A DNA stretch of 64,000 nucleotides from Bacilli bacterium (lineage in GTDB: Bacteria > Bacillota_I > Bacilli_A > RF39 > UBA660), in NCBI GenBank assembly GCA_017434825.1, contig JAFSGC010000016.1:1-64000 (forward strand), given 5' to 3'. How positions within the stretch are numbered: the first letter of the stretch is position 1; each line of letters starts with the position of its first letter. The position numbers and the translations under genes were made by a program. Below, piece by piece: positions 1 to 47,120 of this stretch. The notes under the pieces are model-generated. The model was not told the origin of the DNA. It saw only the letters and a list, made by a program, of their open reading frames with translations, and did no database searches.

Positions 1-59
1 AAAATATTAGTAAATCTTTTTCAATCCCGAATAATGAAAATAATAGCTACGGAGGTAGA

Positions 60-2084
60 ATGAGAAATAAAGTATTAATAGCGCTTGCTGTAGCGATAGT
101 ATTTACAAGTAGTTTATTACTTGCGGTTTTAAATGGTCGTGGACAACTAGTAACAAATGAACTTTTAGATAATCCTCAGGGAATTGCTTTAATGGTTCAT
201 GATGGAACTCAGTACAATAAGGCTACATCAGTAAGTAACTCATTTAAATATGTATTAAATAGAACTTTAACCAAATGCGAAGGTGGAGGAGCTGTAGTAT
301 CGTATAATAGATCAACGGGAGTAATTGAATATAGTTTACCAACCGCTGATATGTGTTATGTATATTTAGATTTAGATACGACACCTCCAACAGTTACATC
401 TTTGGTATTAAATAGTGGGGAAACATATTCAACTACAAAAGCGGTTCCTGCAGTATTAACTTTTCCTTTGCCAGAGGATGACTGGGATGGATATTGTTTA
501 ACACTGGACTCTGATGGTTCGGATTGTACAAGCGGTAATAAATGGCAAACTTTAGGTACTAGTCCTATGTCTTTAACATTTAATTTTACAGTAGACGGTG
601 ATCAAACTGTTTATGCATTTATAAAAGACATCGCAGGCAATCTATCCGCCGCTATAAGTGATTCAATTATTGTTGATACGACCCCTCCAAGTATTCCAAC
701 ATATAGCGCGTATTACGCTTCTGGTGGAGCTGCATATACATCTGGAACATGGACTAATGCTTTAGTTTATACAGATATATCATCTAGTGATGCACTAAGT
801 GGATTAAATAGGATAGAATATAGATGGTCTACATCGACAACTTGGACCACATTAGGCTTTGAAATTTCTGCTTTACAAAATGGTAAGGGAACTGAATCGT
901 GGACATTACAAAATCGTGATCAGATTGCATATTTTAGAGCTTGTGATAATCTAGACAATTGCTCAAATGAATCGGCAGCTTTTAATATTAAATATGATGT
1001 AGACACGCCAAGCTTAACTTCAGCTGCAAGAAGTGGTTATAATTATGTTGCCTTTACAACATCGGATACAGGCGGAAGTGCAAGTCTAAAATATTGTATA
1101 AATACTAGCAGTACTGGAAGTGGCTGCTCGTGGACTGATACAACAGCGGGAACAATTACGACGACAGATATTATCCATGTTGGAGGAACATATTATGTTC
1201 ATGTCAAGGATGGAGCTGGAAATGTTGGTCATAGTAGCTCTTTTACAATGCCATATACTTTAGGCGGATATCTTATGACAAATGCGCCGGAGGGATTTAA
1301 AAATACTGCTCTAGCTGGAGAATTATACCGTTTTCGAGGAACAGCATCAGACAAGATATATAATCACGTTTGTTTTGGAACAACTGACAAATCAACGTGC
1401 ACTGGAAATACTGATGTTTATATGTACCGGATTATTGGTATGCAAAGTGATTATCAAGTAAAACTTATAAAAAAAGAAGCAATTAATGATGAACAAAAGT
1501 GGAACGGTGACAATTTAGTAAACACTTGGTGGGAAAATTGTCGACCATATGCACAAATTTCTGGGTCAGCATATTTAGGAAACTCAACATATATGCCAGC
1601 TGAATGGAAAGTCTTACTTTCATCGCATAAGTTTTATACAATGAATGATTCTGACTTTAAAGCTACTGCTTCTACAGCGAAAGTTTATGCTGCAGAAAGT
1701 GAAAGTGGCACTTACACGAGTACTGTAGGTCTTATGTACATTCATGATTATTTATATGCCTATAATGCGGATGTTTCTTGTGGTGAAGAACAGGATTATT
1801 CTACGTGTCGTAGTTCGTGGATTCATTTAGCCAATAACGATTCTGCGCCAATGAGATCATACGAATGGACTATGTCGAGAGCAGAAAGTATTGCTGAACT
1901 TGTCGGTTGGTTAGAGTGGGACGATGTTCACTATGCTTATTCTATTGCTGGGGACGGATACGTTGCAGGTGAAAAATATGACGAAATAAATACATATCGT
2001 CCAGTAATATATTTAAGAGCAGGAACTCAGTTTGTATCTGGAAGTGGTACAGCCGCTGATCCGTTTATTATAAGAACAGACTAA
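60..2084 (+). CDS. Large secreted/surface protein with Ig-like repeats
   Basis: A 674-residue exported protein. An N-terminal hydrophobic segment (about residues 4-24) follows a short basic start and looks like a signal peptide or anchor. Two to three Ig-like repeats follow, each opening with DTTPP or a variant (about residues 107, 207 and 317), then a C-terminal domain of about 270 residues rich in Tyr, Trp, Ser and Thr that ends in a GSGTAADPF-type motif. I know similar C-terminal domains only as uncharacterised surface proteins of gut Firmicutes, and no sortase signal is visible. GGAGG lies 4 bases before this ATG. The same frame stays open to the window edge, so an upstream start cannot be excluded. 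Another open frame ends at 63 in an ATGA overlap, so an upstream partner gene is possible. Role inferred: cell-surface interaction. Confidence 0.7.
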   Translation: MRNKVLIALAVAIVFTSSLLLAVLNGRGQLVTNELLDNPQGIALMVHDGTQYNKATSVSNSFKYVLNRTLTKCEGGGAVVSYNRSTGVIEYSLPTADMCYVYLDLDTTPPTVTSLVLNSGETYSTTKAVPAVLTFPLPEDDWDGYCLTLDSDGSDCTSGNKWQTLGTSPMSLTFNFTVDGDQTVYAFIKDIAGNLSAAISDSIIVDTTPPSIPTYSAYYASGGAAYTSGTWTNALVYTDISSSDALSGLNRIEYRWSTSTTWTTLGFEISALQNGKGTESWTLQNRDQIAYFRACDNLDNCSNESAAFNIKYDVDTPSLTSAARSGYNYVAFTTSDTGGSASLKYCINTSSTGSGCSWTDTTAGTITTTDIIHVGGTYYVHVKDGAGNVGHSSSFTMPYTLGGYLMTNAPEGFKNTALAGELYRFRGTASDKIYNHVCFGTTDKSTCTGNTDVYMYRIIGMQSDYQVKLIKKEAINDEQKWNGDNLVNTWWENCRPYAQISGSAYLGNSTYMPAEWKVLLSSHKFYTMNDSDFKATASTAKVYAAESESGTYTSTVGLMYIHDYLYAYNADVSCGEEQDYSTCRSSWIHLANNDSAPMRSYEWTMSRAESIAELVGWLEWDDVHYAYSIAGDGYVAGEKYDEINTYRPVIYLRAGTQFVSGSGTAADPFIIRTD

Positions 2085-18199: not shown

Positions 18200-18276
18200 G
18201 GGCCTCTAGCTCAGTTGGTTAGAGCACTCGGCTCATAACCGATCGGTCATAGGTTCGAGTCCTATGAGGCCCACCA
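18200..18276 (+). tRNA. tRNA-Ile2 (CAT anticodon, lysidine type)
   Basis: A complete 77-base cloverleaf with encoded CCA. The acceptor stem is GGGCCTC/GAGGCCC, the anticodon stem CTCGG/CCGAT with loop CTCATAA, and the T arm CATAG-GTTCGAG-CTATG-like. The CTCATAA loop and overall sequence match the minor isoleucine tRNA, whose C34 becomes lysidine through TilS. It lacks the three G:C pairs of initiator tRNA. Elongator tRNA-Met is the alternative reading. Confidence 0.85.
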
Positions 18277-18282
18277 GATATT

Positions 18283-18367
18283 GCGGGTGTGGCGGAACTG
18301 GTAGACGCGCTAGACTTAGGATCTAGTGGAGCAATCCGTGGGGGTTCGAGTCCCTTCACCCGCACCA
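18283..18367 (+). tRNA. tRNA-Leu (TAG anticodon)
   Basis: An 85-base class II tRNA with a long variable arm and encoded CCA. The acceptor stem is GCGGGTG/CACCCGC, the anticodon stem CTAGA/TCTAG with loop CTTAGGA. It is transcribed with the preceding tRNA. Confidence 0.95.
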
Positions 18368-18379
18368 ATTAATAAAATT

Positions 18380-18402
18380 CAGGAAGAAATTCCTGTTTTT
18401 TT
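18380..18402 (+). terminator. Terminator of tRNA pair
   Basis: CAGGAA (18380-18385) pairs with TTCCTG (18390-18395) around GAAA, followed by seven T. Confidence 0.85.
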
Positions 18403-18406
18403 ATTG

Positions 18407-18436
18407 TTGACTATAATTGAATGCATATGCTATAAT
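18407..18436 (+). promoter_or_regulatory. Promoter of His-leader attenuator operon
   Basis: TTGACT (18407-18412) and TATAAT (18431-18436) have an 18-base spacer, with TGC directly before the -10 (extended). The predicted start is near 18443, about 20 bases before the leader-peptide ATG. Confidence 0.7.
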
Positions 18437-18463
18437 CCCAGTAATTGAAAGGAAGCGATTGTT

Positions 18464-18526
18464 ATGTTTAGAAATTTAGTTGCAAGACATCATCATAATA
18501 ATTGGCGCTTGTTAATACGACATTAA
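18464..18526 (+). CDS. 20-residue His-rich leader peptide
   Basis: A short reading frame: MFRNLVAR, then HHH (codons 9-11, all CAT), then NNWRLLIRH and TAA. GGAAG lies 8 bases before the ATG, and a good promoter lies just upstream. Four of 20 codons are His. Position, size and the downstream alternating hairpins match the leader peptide of a ribosome-mediated attenuator, as in the enterobacterial his operon. The peptide itself probably has no other role. Stalling at the CAT codons would report uncharged tRNA-His. Confidence 0.75.
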   Translation: MFRNLVARHHHNNWRLLIRH

Positions 18527-18627
18527 AATTGTTGTAGATACAAGTGCTATTTGTGGTGCTTGTATCTAGTAAATTTAAATATATATTAAAAATGCTATAC
18601 AAGTACTACTTGTGTAGCATTTTTTTA
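18482..18627 (+). promoter_or_regulatory. Six-segment transcription attenuator (his-type architecture)
   Basis: Six alternately complementary segments: A GCAAG (18482-18486), B CTTGT (18508-18512), C TAGATACAAG (18535-18544), D CTTGTATCTA (18559-18568), E AATGCTATACAAG (18591-18603) and F CTTGTGTAGCATT (18609-18621), then T to 18626. C:D is a perfect 10-bp stem; E:F is a 13-bp terminator with one G-U pair. B:C (5 bp) and D:E (7 bp, CTTGTAT with ATACAAG) are the alternatives. A ribosome halted at the His codons covers A, which frees B for C and D for E and prevents the terminator. A ribosome that reaches the stop codon covers B and restores C:D and E:F. Confidence 0.75.
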
Positions 18628-18656
18628 TTAAATAATTTAGAAAGAGGAGATAATTT

Positions 18657-18902
18657 ATGGAAAAAATAAAAAATGGAATAGTATTTAGTGATGATATAAA
18701 AAGGATTTTTAGTGGTGTAAATGCATTTGATTATAGTTATGCATGTAAGCCCAATGATAGTGTGATAGAGGATGTAAGAAAAGATTTTAAGTTAGATGCT
18801 GATAAAATCTTTAATGGTAATGTTACAATTATTTCCGAAGATGAAATGATGGGCGTTAATAACTTAATTGGTGGTGAATATCCCCATCGTAACTTTAGAT
18901 AA
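18657..18902 (+). CDS. Phosphoribosyltransferase-like protein, N-terminal part (zero frame)
   Basis: This frame encodes 81 residues, of which the first 76 (to GGEYP) join logically to the +1 frame that follows; the last five (HRNFR) are then out of register. AGGAGA precedes the ATG. The shift point is CCC CAT at 18882-18887: re-pairing of tRNA-Pro one base forward on CCC (18883-18885) puts the ribosome into the downstream frame, giving a 294-residue protein. Either this is a programmed +1 frameshift, or the gene is broken, or the fourth C is a sequence error. The first reading is favoured by the His A-site codon and the His leader, but it is unproven. Confidence 0.6.
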   Translation: MEKIKNGIVFSDDIKRIFSGVNAFDYSYACKPNDSVIEDVRKDFKLDADKIFNGNVTIISEDEMMGVNNLIGGEYPHRNFR

Positions 18903-19542
18903 AATATATGTAAAACCTGACGAAAAAAATATCTTTTTCTTAGATTGTACAAGAGTATCTGGAAGTAATAAGATAATCTCTCGTAAAAAAGAAAGTTTAA
19001 ATATGCAAATTATTCGAGTTTCTAATTCGTTAAACGGGAACGAAATAATTCTTGCTGACGACGTGGTTTTTTCAGGTAATGTCTTAAAAAATATAATAAA
19101 TAGATTCAGCATTCGCGGAATAACTGTTGTTGGTATTATTTCTTCAATTTGTTCATCTGAAGCATATGAATATTTTAATCGAAATTTAAAATATGGCTTA
19201 AGAACAAAGTTTATAATGTCCGAAGATGTAATTGACCAAATTTGTGAACGAGATTTTTACTTTGGCGTTGCAGGTTCGGGAATCATGATTAATAGTGAAG
19301 AGGGATTATGTAAAGCTCCATATTTTAAACCATATGGAGATTCATGTGAAAGAGCATCTATTCCTAAAGAATATGAAAATTATTTTTCAACAGGGTGCTT
19401 AGAAAGAAGTCTATATTTATGGGATGATGTTGATAACACCAGAGGAAGTTCCACAAAAATTAGTGAACTACCAGAAAGAATAATAAATACAAAAAGTGAA
19501 GATGAAGTAGTAAAAACATTAAGAAGGGAGTTAAGAAGATAA
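18868..19542 (+). CDS. Phosphoribosyltransferase-like protein, main part (+1 frame)
   Basis: Carries a type I phosphoribosyltransferase PRPP-binding motif, EIILADDVVFSGNVLKNI, with the paired Asp at about residues 134-135 of the joined protein. It continues to a conserved-looking C-terminal part (GVAGSGIMINSEEG, APYFKPYGDSCERASIP, CLERSLYLW). The base acceptor cannot be told. This frame has no convincing start of its own: TTG 18868 and GTG 18871/18874 lack a good Shine-Dalgarno site. Translation therefore most likely enters from the upstream frame at CCC-CAT. The stop overlaps the SLOG gene start (TAATG). Confidence 0.7.
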   Translation: MVVNIPIVTLDKIYVKPDEKNIFFLDCTRVSGSNKIISRKKESLNMQIIRVSNSLNGNEIILADDVVFSGNVLKNIINRFSIRGITVVGIISSICSSEAYEYFNRNLKYGLRTKFIMSEDVIDQICERDFYFGVAGSGIMINSEEGLCKAPYFKPYGDSCERASIPKEYENYFSTGCLERSLYLWDDVDNTRGSSTKISELPERIINTKSEDEVVKTLRRELRR

Positions 19543-20075
19543 TGAAAAAACTACAAATAGGAGTAATGGGGTCTGCTGCAGACTTAAACTTTAGTGATGA
19601 AGCTTTAAATTTTGCGAAAGAAATTGGAAAGTGTATAGCAAAATCAGAAAATATTTTAGTGTATGGGGCTGAGAAAGAGTATACTTCGCTGTCAACGGAA
19701 GCTGCTAAAGTAGCTTCTAAAAATGGAGGTATTACAGTAGGCGTTGCTGGAGGAAAAGATAAGAAAATATATGGGAAATATCGTCCTACTATCTTAATAA
19801 ATTCAGGATTAGAAATAGGTGGAGGAAGAGAATTTAACTTAGTACTTTCTTGTGATGTGATTATTGCGATATCTGGAGGTAGTGGCACATTAACAGAAAT
19901 GGCAATTGCTTATCAAGCAGGAATTCCAATTGTGGTAATTGATAAATTTGGCGGTTGGGCAAATAAACTATCAAATGAATACATAGATGATCGAAAAAGA
20001 TTAAAATGTATAAGTGCAAACACTCCACAAGAAGCAGTTAATAAAGCAATTGAATTAGCAAATCAAAAAAAATAA
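19542..20075 (+). CDS. SLOG/LOG-like (TIGR00725-type) nucleotide-binding protein
   Basis: A Rossmann-like protein of 177 residues with the SLOG superfamily hallmarks: IGVMGSAAD at the start, a GGGREFNLVLSCDVIIAISGGSGTLTEMAIAYQAG core, in which GGxGTxxE binds a nucleotide phosphate, and PIVVID. Relatives include LOG phosphoribohydrolases, which cut ribose-5-phosphate from nucleotide monophosphates. Coupling by overlap to a PRPP-type transferase suggests that the two act on the same nucleotide. That link is inference. Confidence 0.8.
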   Translation: MKKLQIGVMGSAADLNFSDEALNFAKEIGKCIAKSENILVYGAEKEYTSLSTEAAKVASKNGGITVGVAGGKDKKIYGKYRPTILINSGLEIGGGREFNLVLSCDVIIAISGGSGTLTEMAIAYQAGIPIVVIDKFGGWANKLSNEYIDDRKRLKCISANTPQEAVNKAIELANQKK

Positions 20076-20118: not shown

Positions 20119-21990
20119 ATGGAATATAAAATAATAAATGGAGCAATATCCTTTGGAACTAATACGATAATTGAAGAAATAAATTTTGAAATTAAAAATA
20201 ATGATAAAATTGCAATTGTTGGTCGAAATGGTAGTGGAAAAACATCTTTGTTAAAAGCGATAGTAGATAATGAAATGCTAGAAACTGGTCTTGGAGAGGA
20301 AAACCTTTCTGTTATCAAAATTGGTAGCCCAACGATAGGGTATCAAACTCAGCATGCATTTTCAGATTTAACTGCCACTTTGGAAGAAGAAATTCTAAAA
20401 GTTTATAAACCAATCACTGATTTAAAAAAGAAAATTGAAAAATTAGAAAAGACCTTAACAATAGATACTTCGGACAAAGTTCTTAATGAGTATACAGATA
20501 GCTTAGATAAATTTAAACTTATCGGCGGTTATACTTATCAAAAAGAATATGAGTTGGCCCTTATGAAGTTTGGATTTACCAAAGAAGATAAATGTAAAAA
20601 ATTATCAGAATTTTCCGGAGGTCAAAGAACCAAAATATCATTTTTAAAACTGATTCTAAGTAAGCCAGATATTTTACTTTTAGATGAACCTACAAATCAT
20701 TTAGATATGCATACAGTAGAGTGGCTTGAAGAATATTTAAGTGATTATCCAAAATCTTTAGTGGTGGTATCTCATGACCGAATGTTCTTAGATAAAGTAG
20801 TAAATAAAATCTATGAGATAGAGTATGCATCTCTTACAAAATATAAAGGTAGTTATACTTCGTACGAAAAGCAAAAGAAGATGAATTTTGAAAAACAATT
20901 AAAAGACTATGAATATCAGCAAAAAGAAATAAAAAGATTAAAAGATATAGCAGAAAGATTTAAATATAAACCTAGTAAAGCCTCAATGGCAATGTCTAAA
21001 TTAAGAAAAATAGAACAAATGCAAATTGTGGATAAACCACAGAAAAGTGATACAAAAACTTTTAATTCAAAGATTAAAGTTAATAGCGAAAGTGGTAATA
21101 CAGTTTTAACGGTAAGAGATTTAGAAATTGGATATGATAGCGTATTATCAAAGGTGTCTTTTGAACTTTTTAAAGGACAAAAAATAGCAATCATCGGAGA
21201 AAATGGTAAGGGTAAATCAACTTTAATAAAAACTCTAATGGGAATAATCCCTAAAATAAGTGGTAAGTTTACTTATGGCTATAATGTTCAAAAAGAATAC
21301 TTTGATCAGCAAATAGAATTTATTAATGAAGAAAATACTATTTATGAAGAATATGAACAAACTTTTCCTGGAACTGAATCGGTACAAATTAGAAAAAATC
21401 TTGGTGCCTTTCTATTTACGGGGGAAGATGTATTTAAAAAGATAAACACTCTTTCTGGAGGAGAAAAAGTAAGACTAGGTTTATGTAAGATACTACGTAA
21501 AGAACCAAACCTATTACTTTTAGATGAACCAACGAATCATTTAGATATTTTAGGAAAAGAGAACTTGGAAGAAATATTAAATAATTACGATGGCAGTGTA
21601 TTGCTTGTTTCTCATGATCGTTATTTTATAAATAGGGTTGCTGATTCGCTTTTAATATTCGAAGAAGATAAAGTAATATATTTTAATGGTAAATACCAAG
21701 AATATATTGATAAGAAAAGTAAAGAGGTTCATGTTATAGAGAAAAAGGAAACTATTAAAAAGAAAAAACAACCACAAGAACAAAGAAATATTAAAGCTCA
21801 AATAAGAAGTGTTGAGAAAGAAATCAATAAGATAGAAGAAAAAATAACAGAAATAAAAAATATGATGCTTGATGAAAAAATATATTCAGACTATCTTAAA
21901 ATGAATGAACTTCAAGACCAAATAAAATTATTTGAATATGAGCTTGAAAATAAAATGGTAGAGTGGGAAAAATTAAGTGATGATTTATAG
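20119..21990 (+). CDS. ABC-F family ATPase
   Basis: A soluble protein of 623 residues with two ABC domains and no membrane segment, of the ribosome-associated ABC-F group. Domain 1 has Walker A GRNGSGKT (about residue 35), signature FSGGQ and Walker B LLLDEPTNHLD. The linker carries the paired helices expected for reaching the tRNA E/P site. Domain 2 has GENGKGKS, LSGGEK and LLLDEPTNHLD. A coiled-coil C-terminal tail of about 80 residues resembles Uup/YdiF. Housekeeping translation roles and antibiotic protection are both found in this family. GAGG precedes the ATG. Confidence 0.92.
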   Translation: MEYKIINGAISFGTNTIIEEINFEIKNNDKIAIVGRNGSGKTSLLKAIVDNEMLETGLGEENLSVIKIGSPTIGYQTQHAFSDLTATLEEEILKVYKPITDLKKKIEKLEKTLTIDTSDKVLNEYTDSLDKFKLIGGYTYQKEYELALMKFGFTKEDKCKKLSEFSGGQRTKISFLKLILSKPDILLLDEPTNHLDMHTVEWLEEYLSDYPKSLVVVSHDRMFLDKVVNKIYEIEYASLTKYKGSYTSYEKQKKMNFEKQLKDYEYQQKEIKRLKDIAERFKYKPSKASMAMSKLRKIEQMQIVDKPQKSDTKTFNSKIKVNSESGNTVLTVRDLEIGYDSVLSKVSFELFKGQKIAIIGENGKGKSTLIKTLMGIIPKISGKFTYGYNVQKEYFDQQIEFINEENTIYEEYEQTFPGTESVQIRKNLGAFLFTGEDVFKKINTLSGGEKVRLGLCKILRKEPNLLLLDEPTNHLDILGKENLEEILNNYDGSVLLVSHDRYFINRVADSLLIFEEDKVIYFNGKYQEYIDKKSKEVHVIEKKETIKKKKQPQEQRNIKAQIRSVEKEINKIEEKITEIKNMMLDEKIYSDYLKMNELQDQIKLFEYELENKMVEWEKLSDDL

Positions 21991-43774: not shown

Positions 43775-44003
43775 AATCTTTTAAAGATTATGAACAAGAC
43801 GAAACTATTAGGAAGTTTTGAAAGAGAGCCAAGTAAGGTGAAAGTTGGCAAATGAAATAGTAGTTTGGATCACTTGGGAATTGCTTATTTGAATAAAATA
43901 GAATAGGACGAATAACTCGCGTTAAGAGGTTAAAGTGTATGACAAGTTCATAAACTAAGGTGGTACCACGGATAATGTCCGCCCTTAGATTTATGGACTT
44001 TTT
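43775..44003 (+). promoter_or_regulatory. T-box leader, isoleucine specific
   Basis: The conserved T-box AAGGTGGTACCACGG lies at 43957-43971, with TGGT as the bulge that pairs with the uncharged tRNA end. The specifier codon reads ATC (43869-43871), within GGATCACTTGGG, matching tRNA-Ile. The competing terminator pairs AAGT, CATAAA and TAAGG with CCTTA, TTTATG and ACTT, followed by a T-run. Uncharged tRNA-Ile should stabilise the antiterminator and switch on ileS. Confidence 0.95.
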
Positions 44004-44024: not shown

Positions 44025-47000
44025 ATGAAAAATTTTAAGGAATTAGACAAAAGACCCGTAAGTGAGGTCGAAACATCGATTTCTGAATCATGGAAAAGTA
44101 TCAATGCAATGCACGATGCTCAAAATAAGAAAAATGAAAATAATGAAACTTTCGTTTTCTATGATGGCCCGGCATTTGCTAATGGGTTTCCAGGATTACA
44201 CCATATGGTATCAAAAAATCTTAAAGACTGTGTTACAAAGTATCATGTAATGAACGGTAAGAAGGTTATAAGAAAGATTGGATGGGATACTCATGGTCTT
44301 CCGATTGAAAACCATGTAGAAAAGAAATTGGGAATTTCATCTAAGAAAGAAATCGAAGCTTTAGGTATTGAAAAATTTAATGAAGAATGTCGTAAGAGTG
44401 TTAGAGCTAATGAAGATGCATTTACAAATTTAACTTCAAAAATGGGACAATTCTTTGATGTAGAAAATCCATATTTAACATATAAAAATGATTATATTGA
44501 AACTGAATGGTGGATTTTAAAAGAAATGTTTGAAAAAGATATGTTCTATGAAGGAACTAGAGTAGTACCATACTGTCCTCATTGTGGAACAGGATTAGCT
44601 ACTCACGAAGTTGCTCAAAACTATCAAACTGATACTGCAATTACAGTATATGTACCATTTAAGAAAAAAGATGAAAATGTATATTTCTTAGTTTGGACAA
44701 CAACTCCATGGACGTTAATTGCTAACGTAGCTCTTTGTGTAAATCCAAATGAAGACTATGCATTAGTTGAATCTAAAGGAACTAAGTTTATTTTAGCGTC
44801 TGCATTAGTAGAAAAAGTTTTAGGGGAAGAGGCTACTGTTCTAGAAACCTACAAAGGTAAAGATTTAGAATATCAAGAATATGAACAATTACTTCCATCT
44901 TTCGAAGTAGATAAAAAAGCTTTCTTTGTTACTTGTGATAATTATGTAACTATGGAGGATGGAACTGGTATCGTACATATTGCACCAGCCTTTGGTGAAG
45001 ATGATGCTAATATTGGTAAAAATTATGATTTACCATATTTAAATCCAGTAGGAAAAGATGGTTGCTATACCGCTGGACTTTGGGAAGGTAAATTTGTTCA
45101 TGATGTAAATGAAGAAATTGTAACTTACTTAAAAGAAAATGATAAATTATTTAAAAAACAAAAACTAGCTCATGAATATCCTCATTGTTGGAGATGTGAT
45201 ACAGCATTAATTTATTATTCAATGCCAAGTTATTACATAAGAGTTAGTCAAATGACTGATGATTTAGTTAAAGCTAATGAAAAAGTAAATTGGTATCCAG
45301 CTTATGTTGGTGAAAAAAGATTTGCTAATTGGCTTGCAAATGCAAGAGACTGGAATGTATCACGTTCTCGTTATTGGGGAAGTCCAATTCCTTACTGGAA
45401 GTGTGAATGCGGTCATGCCCATATGGTAGGATCAATAGAGGAATTAAAGAATTTGGCTATCGAAGAAATTGGCGAAGATTTTGACTTACATAAACCATAT
45501 ATTGATAATGTTCACTTAACTTGTGAAAAATGTGGCAAAAAAATGACTCGTATTCCAGATGTTTTAGACTGTTGGTTTGACTCTGGAGCTATGCCATTTG
45601 CTCAATATCATTATCCATTTGAAAATAAAGAATTATGGGAAGAACAATTTCCTGCAGACTTCATTTGTGAAGGTATTGACCAAACTCGTGGTTGGTTCTA
45701 TACATTAATGGTAATTTCAACTTTTGTTAAAGGTTGTTCACCGTTTAAGAATGTTTTAGTAAATGACTTATTACTTGATGCAAATGGTAAGAAAATGAGT
45801 AAGAGTCGCGGTAATATCGTTGAACCGTTTAGCACAATCGAAGAATATGGTGCTGATACAGTAAGATTCTACTTACCATATGTTTCACCAGTATGGACTC
45901 CGCTTAAATTTGATATGGAAGGATTAAAAGAAGTATATTCTAAATTTTTCAATCCTCTTAAAAATACTTATAGTTTCTTTGCGATGTATGCCAATATTGA
46001 TAAAATAGATACTAACGAATGTAGTGTTCCATATGAAAATCGTGAAGAAATTGATAAATGGTTAATTTCAAAATATAATAAACTAGTTAAAAATGTTCGT
46101 GCTTCATTTGAGGAATATGATTTAAATAAAGTTGTTCATTTCCTAGCATCATTTGTTTCAGAAGATCTATCTAACTGGTATATCAGAAGAAATAGAAATA
46201 GATTCTGGGGAAGTGAATTAGATTCATCTAAGAAAAGTGTATATATAACTACATACGAAGTATTAGTTGGTTTATCTAAATTAATTGCTCCAGTGGTACC
46301 ATTTGTTTCAGAAGAATTATATCGCAATTTGACTGGAGAAGAATCAGTTCATTTAGCAGATTATCCATCATATGATGAAAATTTAATTAATGAACATATA
46401 GAAGAAAGAATGGACTTAGTAAGAAACTTAATTTCTATTGGACGTTACGTACGTGAAGAAAATAAGATAAAAGTTCGTCAACCACTTCCAGAAGCTTTAG
46501 TAGATGGTAAAAATAAAGAACTTCTTAATGATTTAACTAATTTAGTTATGGAAGAATTAAATGTTAAGAAAGTAACTTTTGCAGAAGATTTAAATACCTA
46601 TATGACATTTACAATTAAACCTAATTTTAAAGAAGTAGGTAAAGTATTTGGTAAAAATATGGGTGAATATCAAAAGAAATTATTAGAATTATCTCCAGAA
46701 GAAATCTCTTTACTTCAAAATGGAGAAAACATTAAGATGAATGTTGCGGATACTGAATATGATATTACACCAGATATGGTTGAAATTAGATATAATGCAA
46801 AAGAAGGATTTAATGTTGGTATGGAAAATGGCGCATTTATAATCCTTGATACAAGAATTACTGAAGAACTTAAAATGGAAGGTAATGCTCGTGAGTTTGT
46901 ATCAAAAGTTCAACAATTACGTAAAGATAATGGTTTTGACATCGCTGATCGTATAGTAACGACATATAATGCAGATGAAGAATTTGCAAAAGCAATCGAA

Positions 47001-47120
47001 GCTAATATCGATTATGTAAAAAATGAAACATTAACAGTTGAGTTAATAAAAGATGAAAGTCTTGAAAAAAACCTAACTTTAAATGATTACAGCGTAGGTA
47101 TTAAATTAGAAAGAAAATAG
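44025..47120 (+). CDS. ileS: Isoleucyl-tRNA synthetase, type 2, with GLHH signature
   Basis: Charges tRNA-Ile and edits valine. Length (1031) and sequence (KKVIRKIGWDTHGLPIE, TWWENxF-free long middle, DSGAMPFAQYHYPFEN) fit the eukaryote-like IleRS2 class. The class I signature after FANGFP reads GLHH instead of HxGH, with the His and Gly positions exchanged. KMSKS is intact (GKKMSKSRGN), and CP1 editing-domain residues (WTTTPWTL) are present. IleRS2 is naturally mupirocin tolerant, and GXHH variants have been reported as extremely resistant. AAGGAGG precedes the ATG; control is by the T-box. Confidence 0.96.
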   Translation: MKNFKELDKRPVSEVETSISESWKSINAMHDAQNKKNENNETFVFYDGPAFANGFPGLHHMVSKNLKDCVTKYHVMNGKKVIRKIGWDTHGLPIENHVEKKLGISSKKEIEALGIEKFNEECRKSVRANEDAFTNLTSKMGQFFDVENPYLTYKNDYIETEWWILKEMFEKDMFYEGTRVVPYCPHCGTGLATHEVAQNYQTDTAITVYVPFKKKDENVYFLVWTTTPWTLIANVALCVNPNEDYALVESKGTKFILASALVEKVLGEEATVLETYKGKDLEYQEYEQLLPSFEVDKKAFFVTCDNYVTMEDGTGIVHIAPAFGEDDANIGKNYDLPYLNPVGKDGCYTAGLWEGKFVHDVNEEIVTYLKENDKLFKKQKLAHEYPHCWRCDTALIYYSMPSYYIRVSQMTDDLVKANEKVNWYPAYVGEKRFANWLANARDWNVSRSRYWGSPIPYWKCECGHAHMVGSIEELKNLAIEEIGEDFDLHKPYIDNVHLTCEKCGKKMTRIPDVLDCWFDSGAMPFAQYHYPFENKELWEEQFPADFICEGIDQTRGWFYTLMVISTFVKGCSPFKNVLVNDLLLDANGKKMSKSRGNIVEPFSTIEEYGADTVRFYLPYVSPVWTPLKFDMEGLKEVYSKFFNPLKNTYSFFAMYANIDKIDTNECSVPYENREEIDKWLISKYNKLVKNVRASFEEYDLNKVVHFLASFVSEDLSNWYIRRNRNRFWGSELDSSKKSVYITTYEVLVGLSKLIAPVVPFVSEELYRNLTGEESVHLADYPSYDENLINEHIEERMDLVRNLISIGRYVREENKIKVRQPLPEALVDGKNKELLNDLTNLVMEELNVKKVTFAEDLNTYMTFTIKPNFKEVGKVFGKNMGEYQKKLLELSPEEISLLQNGENIKMNVADTEYDITPDMVEIRYNAKEGFNVGMENGAFIILDTRITEELKMEGNAREFVSKVQQLRKDNGFDIADRIVTTYNADEEFAKAIEANIDYVKNETLTVELIKDESLEKNLTLNDYSVGIKLERK

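Follow-up and report, generated by a model that had tools for sequence, protein, structure and literature searches.

What signal opens an operon whose first gene is split between two reading frames, and which lies behind a short ORF with a run of histidine codons? Here, we describe such a locus in a 64,000-nt stretch of DNA from a Bacilli bacterium (RF39; UBA660; assembly GCA_017434825.1, contig JAFSGC010000016.1, positions 1-64,000), the whole of which is called the window below. A sequence-only reading had described the locus as a His-type ribosome-mediated attenuator before a PRTase-SLOG operon, a description that stands but had passed over the conserved +1 split of the first gene and the His-free proteins of the operon. 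We propose, with a probability of roughly 0.78, a two-layer His-starvation switch in which transcription attenuation would be followed by slippage at a hungry CAT codon to give a His-free PRTase. The promoter and the 20-codon leader with its CAT run are present as that reading had claimed, and the regulatory region is made up as follows:

18407-18436, + strand: sigma-70-like promoter, TTGACT-18 nt-TATAAT, matching 11 of 12 consensus positions, with a TG upstream
18448-18455, + strand: Shine-Dalgarno sequence AAAGGAAG of the leader ORF, assigned by sequence; similar elements precede other leaders
18464-18526, + strand: leader peptide ORF MFRNLVARHHHNNWRLLIRH of 20 codons, assigned by sequence and aligned relatives
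18488-18496, + strand: CAT-CAT-CAT (CATCATCAT), putative His sensing codons; related leaders have His or Arg runs
18505-18512, + strand: segment B (GCGCTTGT), predicted to pair with C under starvation and to be masked by a ribosome at the leader stop
18516-18536, + strand: inner stem TACGAC (18516-18521) with GTTGTA (18531-18536), which lengthens B:C
18537-18547, + strand: segment C (GATACAAGTGC), partner of B or D
18556-18566, + strand: segment D (GTGCTTGTATC), partner of C (OFF) or E (ON)
18589-18626, + strand: E:F intrinsic terminator (18589-18603 with 18609-18623) and T-run
18589-18606 and 18609-18623, + strand: segments E and F; positions 18597-18606 of E also pair with D

An 81-aa ORF, an overlapping PRTase ORF in another frame, and a SLOG/LDcluster4 gene follow 3' of the attenuator in this order. 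Genes for tRNA-Met and tRNA-Leu lie immediately 5' of it (18200-18395), followed by a terminator (18380-18395).

The leader RNA folds at -60.6 kcal/mol, compared with -29.7 +/- 3.5 kcal/mol for dinucleotide shuffles (z -8.8; 0 of 200). In the window's leader, the first CAT lies 17 nt from the start of B, and the end of B lies 12 nt from the start of the stop codon, a spacing at which a ribosome at the stop would mask B and a ribosome at the His run would leave B free. Relatives with short leaders have the stop within or just 3' of B (within B in loci L021 and L022). With the ribosome placed on the first His codon, simulated folding of the RNA just 3' of it gave B:C in most relatives and D:E in many; with the ribosome on the stop codon, it gave C:D and E:F in nearly all. 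Segments D and E, delimited by hand, pair better with their own partners than with those of other sequences, at -13.1 versus -10.6 kcal/mol for 52 sequences and -12.6 versus -9.3 kcal/mol for 15 representatives (0 of 5000 permutations each), and RNAalifold selected B:C and D:E unprompted in the wider family. The antiterminator and terminator helices are mutually exclusive and conserved with covariation. An alignment of relatives, which the sequence-only reading had proposed as a check, retains the His codons and both pairing sets with compensatory change. Six alternating segments had been claimed, of which B to F are present and conserved in relatives; A (GCAAG, 18482-18486) was not seen in the aligned relatives and, on this sequence comparison, is not a conserved part of the attenuator. 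The terminator and its T-run, given earlier as a 13-bp hairpin, are present at 18589-18626 with a stem longer than 13 bp. In some sequences, that of the window among them, C:D and E:F are the preferred helices of the free RNA even when folding begins from the starved position; the ON state in the window must then depend on folding order, as is also the case for classical attenuators.

Judged by its sequence, the leader RNA is a ribosome-mediated His attenuator, in which a short ORF carries a run of codons for the amino acid of the pathway that it appears to control. With ample His-tRNA, the ribosome would reach the leader stop and mask B, C:D and the E:F terminator would form, and transcription would stop. 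With scarce His-tRNA, the ribosome would stall at the CAT run, allowing B:C and then D:E to form, no terminator would arise, and PRTase-SLOG would be transcribed. Loci L016, L024, L032, L033 and L034 have PRTase-SLOG-hisS in one operon, and read-through in several relatives would thus transcribe all three genes.

Scanning the order yielded four PRTase genes of clear homology. GTDB genomes, searched with the joined PRTase, yielded 23 loci, nearly all labelled as uncultured Bacilli or Clostridia bins. Four of these duplicate the order-scan genes, and the PRTase set comprises 24 loci including the window. A leader peptide, CAT run and alternating RNA helices stand upstream of 23 of the 24 operons, and every one of these leaders has two or more His codons side by side; the exception is L035, where hisS precedes PRTase-SLOG. 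The leader RNA of L025, L028 and L030 is quite different (ELHHHRRSL or similar), yet the helix order is unchanged. What the 23 leaders have in common is the His run and not the C-terminal LLIRH. Searches with the PRTase protein gave no matches in viral contigs, phages or plasmids.

The RNA is not confined to this operon. Of 385 genomes of the order, 35 have it according to a covariance model; its usual place is before hisS or another His gene, and most copies do not precede a PRTase. In a class-wide sample, no further copies were found beyond this RNA family at E 0.001. Weak covariance-model matches at L105 and L110 look like chance and were set aside. Targets of the His version include hisS (many copies, with HHH runs in the leaders), hisG (L043 and L052, both above the curated cut-off), a His racemase-like gene, and M20 deacylase and GNAT genes. 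The racemase-like gene, at L059, matches the histidine racemase CntK at 8e-33, yet falls below its cut-off. Nine copies have Arg-codon runs (RRR) in place of His codons (L064, L065, L100, L101, L102, L106, L107, L108 and L109); L109 heads an operon with an ArgRS-like sequence (argS) that was recognised by eye, and the others mostly precede M20 and GNAT genes. With His versions before His genes and Arg versions before argS or Arg-poor genes, the leader codon goes with the downstream gene. This correspondence, with hisS, hisG and the CntK-like gene on one side and the argS operon and Arg-poor genes on the other, supports the His-type attenuator reading. At L108, the Arg attenuator stands before two ORFs, the first of which has a single Arg in 301 residues. 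Upstream of hisS at L068 and L069 there is a different His-containing leader-like ORF (MKNNYIKEWVARYHHVFFRHLRLN at L068); in these genomes the PRTase operon carries the main attenuator.

HisD is absent from the organism's own genome and from nine related genomes and was found in 13 of 14 control genomes, so the organism and these nine relatives are probably His auxotrophs. The single hisG genes of L043 and L052 stand alone under a His attenuator, in genomes without HisD. The organism's own hisS lies elsewhere (G000:C19) behind a leader that looks T-box-like by eye and scores below the Rfam threshold.

Known leaders differ from this one in their targets. The enterobacterial his leader is de-repressed by uncharged tRNA-His, an established mechanism. 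Like that leader (RF00514), the RNA described here combines a His-codon run in a short ORF with alternating helices and an intrinsic terminator, but it has only two to four adjacent His codons, has Arg-codon sister versions, and, in organisms that are probably His auxotrophs, stands before PRTase-SLOG, hisS and scavenging genes rather than before a biosynthetic operon. An Rfam search gave no match of RF00514 to this region of the window, even at E up to 10, and no match of the T-box (RF00230) at 18400-18700. The same search finds a T-box at 43781-43989 (100 bits), which stands before an isoleucyl-tRNA synthetase-like gene (44025-47120), and T-boxes and leader-peptide attenuators therefore coexist in this genome. 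Other Rfam matches at a permissive threshold were chance-level families and were discarded, among them a match to rli43 (E 0.003) far below its gathering score.

The sequence-only reading had regarded a His attenuator in a Gram-positive genome as unusual. As a class it is not new, because a 2022 report (PMC9413887) already presents candidate His attenuators upstream of his operons in the B. cereus group, five Eubacteriales and six Erysipelotrichales. These are likewise low-GC Gram-positive leaders rich in His (3-5 His codons in a row) with a terminator and an antiterminator. The present RNA differs from them in lineage and in targets, and biosynthesis (HisD) is apparently absent here. The surprise is thus in the targets and the second control layer, and not in the Gram-positive host. 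As far as we found, the RNA family, its PRTase-SLOG and hisS targets, its Arg-codon sisters, and the +1 shift at the only His codon of a gene all appear undescribed.

The proteins under this control are themselves strongly depleted of histidine, which further supports the His-type reading. Both the PRTase and the SLOG protein of the window have zero histidines. At a background His content of about 1.4%, 22 PRTases have 4 His in 6686 residues (about 92 expected), the SLOG proteins that could be parsed have 0 in 2501 residues (about 35 expected), and attenuated HisRS have 3 in 6499 residues (about 90 expected), with 13 of 15 wholly His-free; the last count leaves out L062, a broken hisS. The organism's own HisRS, behind the T-box-like leader, has 8 His and another HisRS has 4, and the HisRS of L035 is His-free without any leader. 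M20 proteins have 2-4 Arg under RRR leaders versus 9 under HHH leaders (p = 0.0005), and the reverse difference in their His content has the expected direction but is not significant (p = 0.16). Some background proteins are also without His, part of them being attenuated HisRS themselves. Because binomial probabilities count related sequences as independent, they exaggerate the significance; more weight lies in the recurrence of the depletion in unrelated protein families. According to PMC4209129, enzymes required when an amino acid runs short tend to avoid that amino acid, and PRTase, SLOG and HisRS share this tendency. Compared with the bias presented there, the avoidance here is nearly complete (0 His in a HisRS of about 430 aa) and reaches a synthetase and nucleotide enzymes.

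The second layer concerns the first gene of the operon, which is read as follows:

18657-18902, + strand: zero-frame ORF of 81 aa, with its sole His codon at codon 77; the truncated product if no shift occurs
18870-18877, + strand: SD-like element GGTGGTGA just 5' of the slippery site, with a 17-nt anti-SD duplex of -10.8 kcal/mol
18882-18887, + strand: putative +1 slippery site CCC-CAT, with the Pro codon in the P site and the His codon in the A site
18657-19542, + strand: predicted frameshifted PRTase of 294 aa with zero histidines, from the joined frames and the fold of an in-frame relative
19542-20075, + strand: SLOG/LDcluster4 (TIGR00725-like) protein of 177 aa with zero histidines

The sequence CCCCAT is invariant in 20 of the 24 loci, and the PRTase is split there at the same codon (XXX-CCC-CAT), continuing in the +1 frame with PIV(S/T)LD or PIISLD. 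In L021, L022, L025 and L035 the corresponding stretch is in one frame, with CCA or CCT and no CCCCAT. The fused product aligns through the junction with these natural single-ORF relatives, the same one-base offset joins two conserved halves in 20 assemblies (45-70% identity to the window), and the PRTase tree requires at least two changes between split and unsplit genes. CCC is seldom used for Pro, with 7 of the 390 Pro codons of window genes, and C follows none of these seven. The 17 nt before the slip pair with the anti-Shine-Dalgarno at a mean of -8.8 kcal/mol versus -2.1 elsewhere in the genes, and the duplex of the window is better than at every control position in its gene. This pairing is found in most but not all loci, as L028 and L030 have no clear SD-like element and those of L017 and L019 are weak. 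Programmed +1 frameshifting at CCC-CAT is thus strongly supported at the level of sequence.

A His codon directly follows CCC in all 20 frameshift loci and is the only one of the zero-frame ORF in 19 of them, so a His-starved ribosome would pause at one place. There, peptidyl-tRNA-Pro would slip from CCC to the overlapping CCC while CAT stands in the A site, aided by the SD-like element; a slip would bypass the CAT codon and yield a His-free PRTase, and no slip would yield a short truncated product. In prfB (RF2), an SD-like element, UAU, a slippery CUU and a slow A-site codon lead to a one-base forward slip. The layout is similar here, with CCC as the slippery codon, and several loci read AGGAGG-UAU-CCC-CAU with the same spacing; the A site, however, holds a His sense codon and not a stop, and the signal would be charged tRNA-His rather than RF2. 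Hungry-codon frameshifting, studied by Gallant and others under laboratory starvation, reportedly consists of a slip when the A-site codon lacks charged tRNA, and the slip proposed here is the same. The Ty1 frameshift uses a rare-tRNA sense codon, and we know of no starvation gating for it.

How far the shift depends on His supply is the point on which the readings divide. A natural, starvation-specific hungry-codon frameshift, which would make full PRTase only with uncharged tRNA-His behind a transcription gate set by the same signal and with His-purged proteins, is in our view somewhat favoured, and we think it the most economical reading. A 2016 review knew of no natural starvation-specific trans-frame product (PMC5009743), none was found in the open-access literature by title and abstract, and the combination of an attenuator with a frameshift at a gene's only His codon seems to have no natural example. 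A less likely but substantial alternative keeps the attenuator as described and makes the +1 shift constitutive, or responsive to, for example, tRNA-Pro modification or proline supply, with CAT a by-product of the Ile codon. A slip before Ile forces an A-site CAT (C + ATT/ATC), and the in-frame relatives have this invariant Ile too, so conservation of CAT is not independent proof of His sensing. CCC sites can also slip without a His codon, since shifts at CCC_UGA have been reported for Listeria phages and for E. coli pheL (PMC5009743). Two points speak for the hungry codon, though neither is decisive: in 19 of 20 loci the zero frame has no His codon besides this CAT, in proteins from which His has otherwise been purged, and a purely constitutive split would make an enzyme at high cost. 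L021, L022 and L025 keep the attenuator but have lost or never had the frameshift, so the second layer is dispensable.

The remaining explanations fare worse. Two proteins from overlapping genes, with the PRTase ORF initiated independently and no frameshifting, would fit the ATG, GTG or TTG found 3-7 codons 5' of the slip in the PRTase frame at 16 of 20 loci, where the SD-like element could serve as a ribosome binding site. We consider this improbable: these starts are mostly GTG or TTG at inconsistent positions, whereas CCCCAT is invariant; L028, L030, L033 and L034 have no start codon in that frame between the last stop and the slip; L021, L022 and L025 are natural single-ORF fusions; and the aligned model ranges, such as 7..272, place the N-terminal part within the PRTase fold. 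Even less probable is a leader that acts through nascent-peptide arrest, or through drug or metabolite binding, rather than His-tRNA supply. LLIRH-stop is nearly invariant in the main subtype, but nine loci end differently (L021, L022, L025, L028, L030, L053, L056, L057 and L063), B and the inner stem account for the DNA at LLIRH, RRR leaders accompany argS and Arg-poor genes, and the products are His-depleted; arrest by LLIRH was considered and rejected. A degraded gene or assembly artefact is scarcely credible when 20 assemblies share the codon at which the frame is offset by one base and preserve the sequence on both sides of it, even though all loci come from assemblies, mostly metagenome bins, and L035 has an apparent break elsewhere in the gene.

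By its predicted fold and a PRPP-loop-like motif (ADDVVFSG), the product of the first gene is a type I PRTase. Its Pfam Pribosyltran match (E 2.9e-4) falls below the gathering score. Structures were predicted for the single-ORF relative L022 (pLDDT 91) and for unmodified ORF fragments of other loci; PRTases or other proteins of the PRTase fold account for nearly all of the highest-ranked structural matches (best Z 8.9, rmsd 4.4, 153 aligned), and the L022 model matches type I PRTases across the frameshift junction. PDB profile matches to designed PPR proteins were judged spurious. The only PADLOC match to a defence system was a weak one of SLOG to STALD ThsA. Lone hisG genes in this regulon hint that the His-starvation response involves PRPP-based chemistry, in which they and the PRTases may make or process a PRPP-derived nucleotide.

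If the two-layer switch holds, this gut bacterium would turn on an almost His-free gene set only on exhaustion of His, and the locus would be a conserved and directly testable candidate for natural starvation frameshifting, a process studied in the laboratory for decades, with an internal logic of transcription gate, slippage at a sole His codon, and His-free products. It would also tie an uncharacterised PRTase-SLOG pair to histidyl-tRNA supply and, in gut Bacilli with reduced genomes, broaden the reach of leader-peptide attenuation to include scavenging genes and aminoacyl-tRNA synthetases. The His and Arg versions of one RNA scaffold, over His-poor and Arg-poor genes, are a clean natural experiment.

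Directly 3' of the operon in the window is a gene for an ABC-F protein (20119-21990), whose best NCBIfam match is OptrA, far below cut-off. Elsewhere, L103 (G250:C1:59953-60085) is a weak R1 match (E 3.5e-4) before an ABC-F gene, and its leader (MYTNKTIMYTC) is possibly that of a drug-responsive attenuator.
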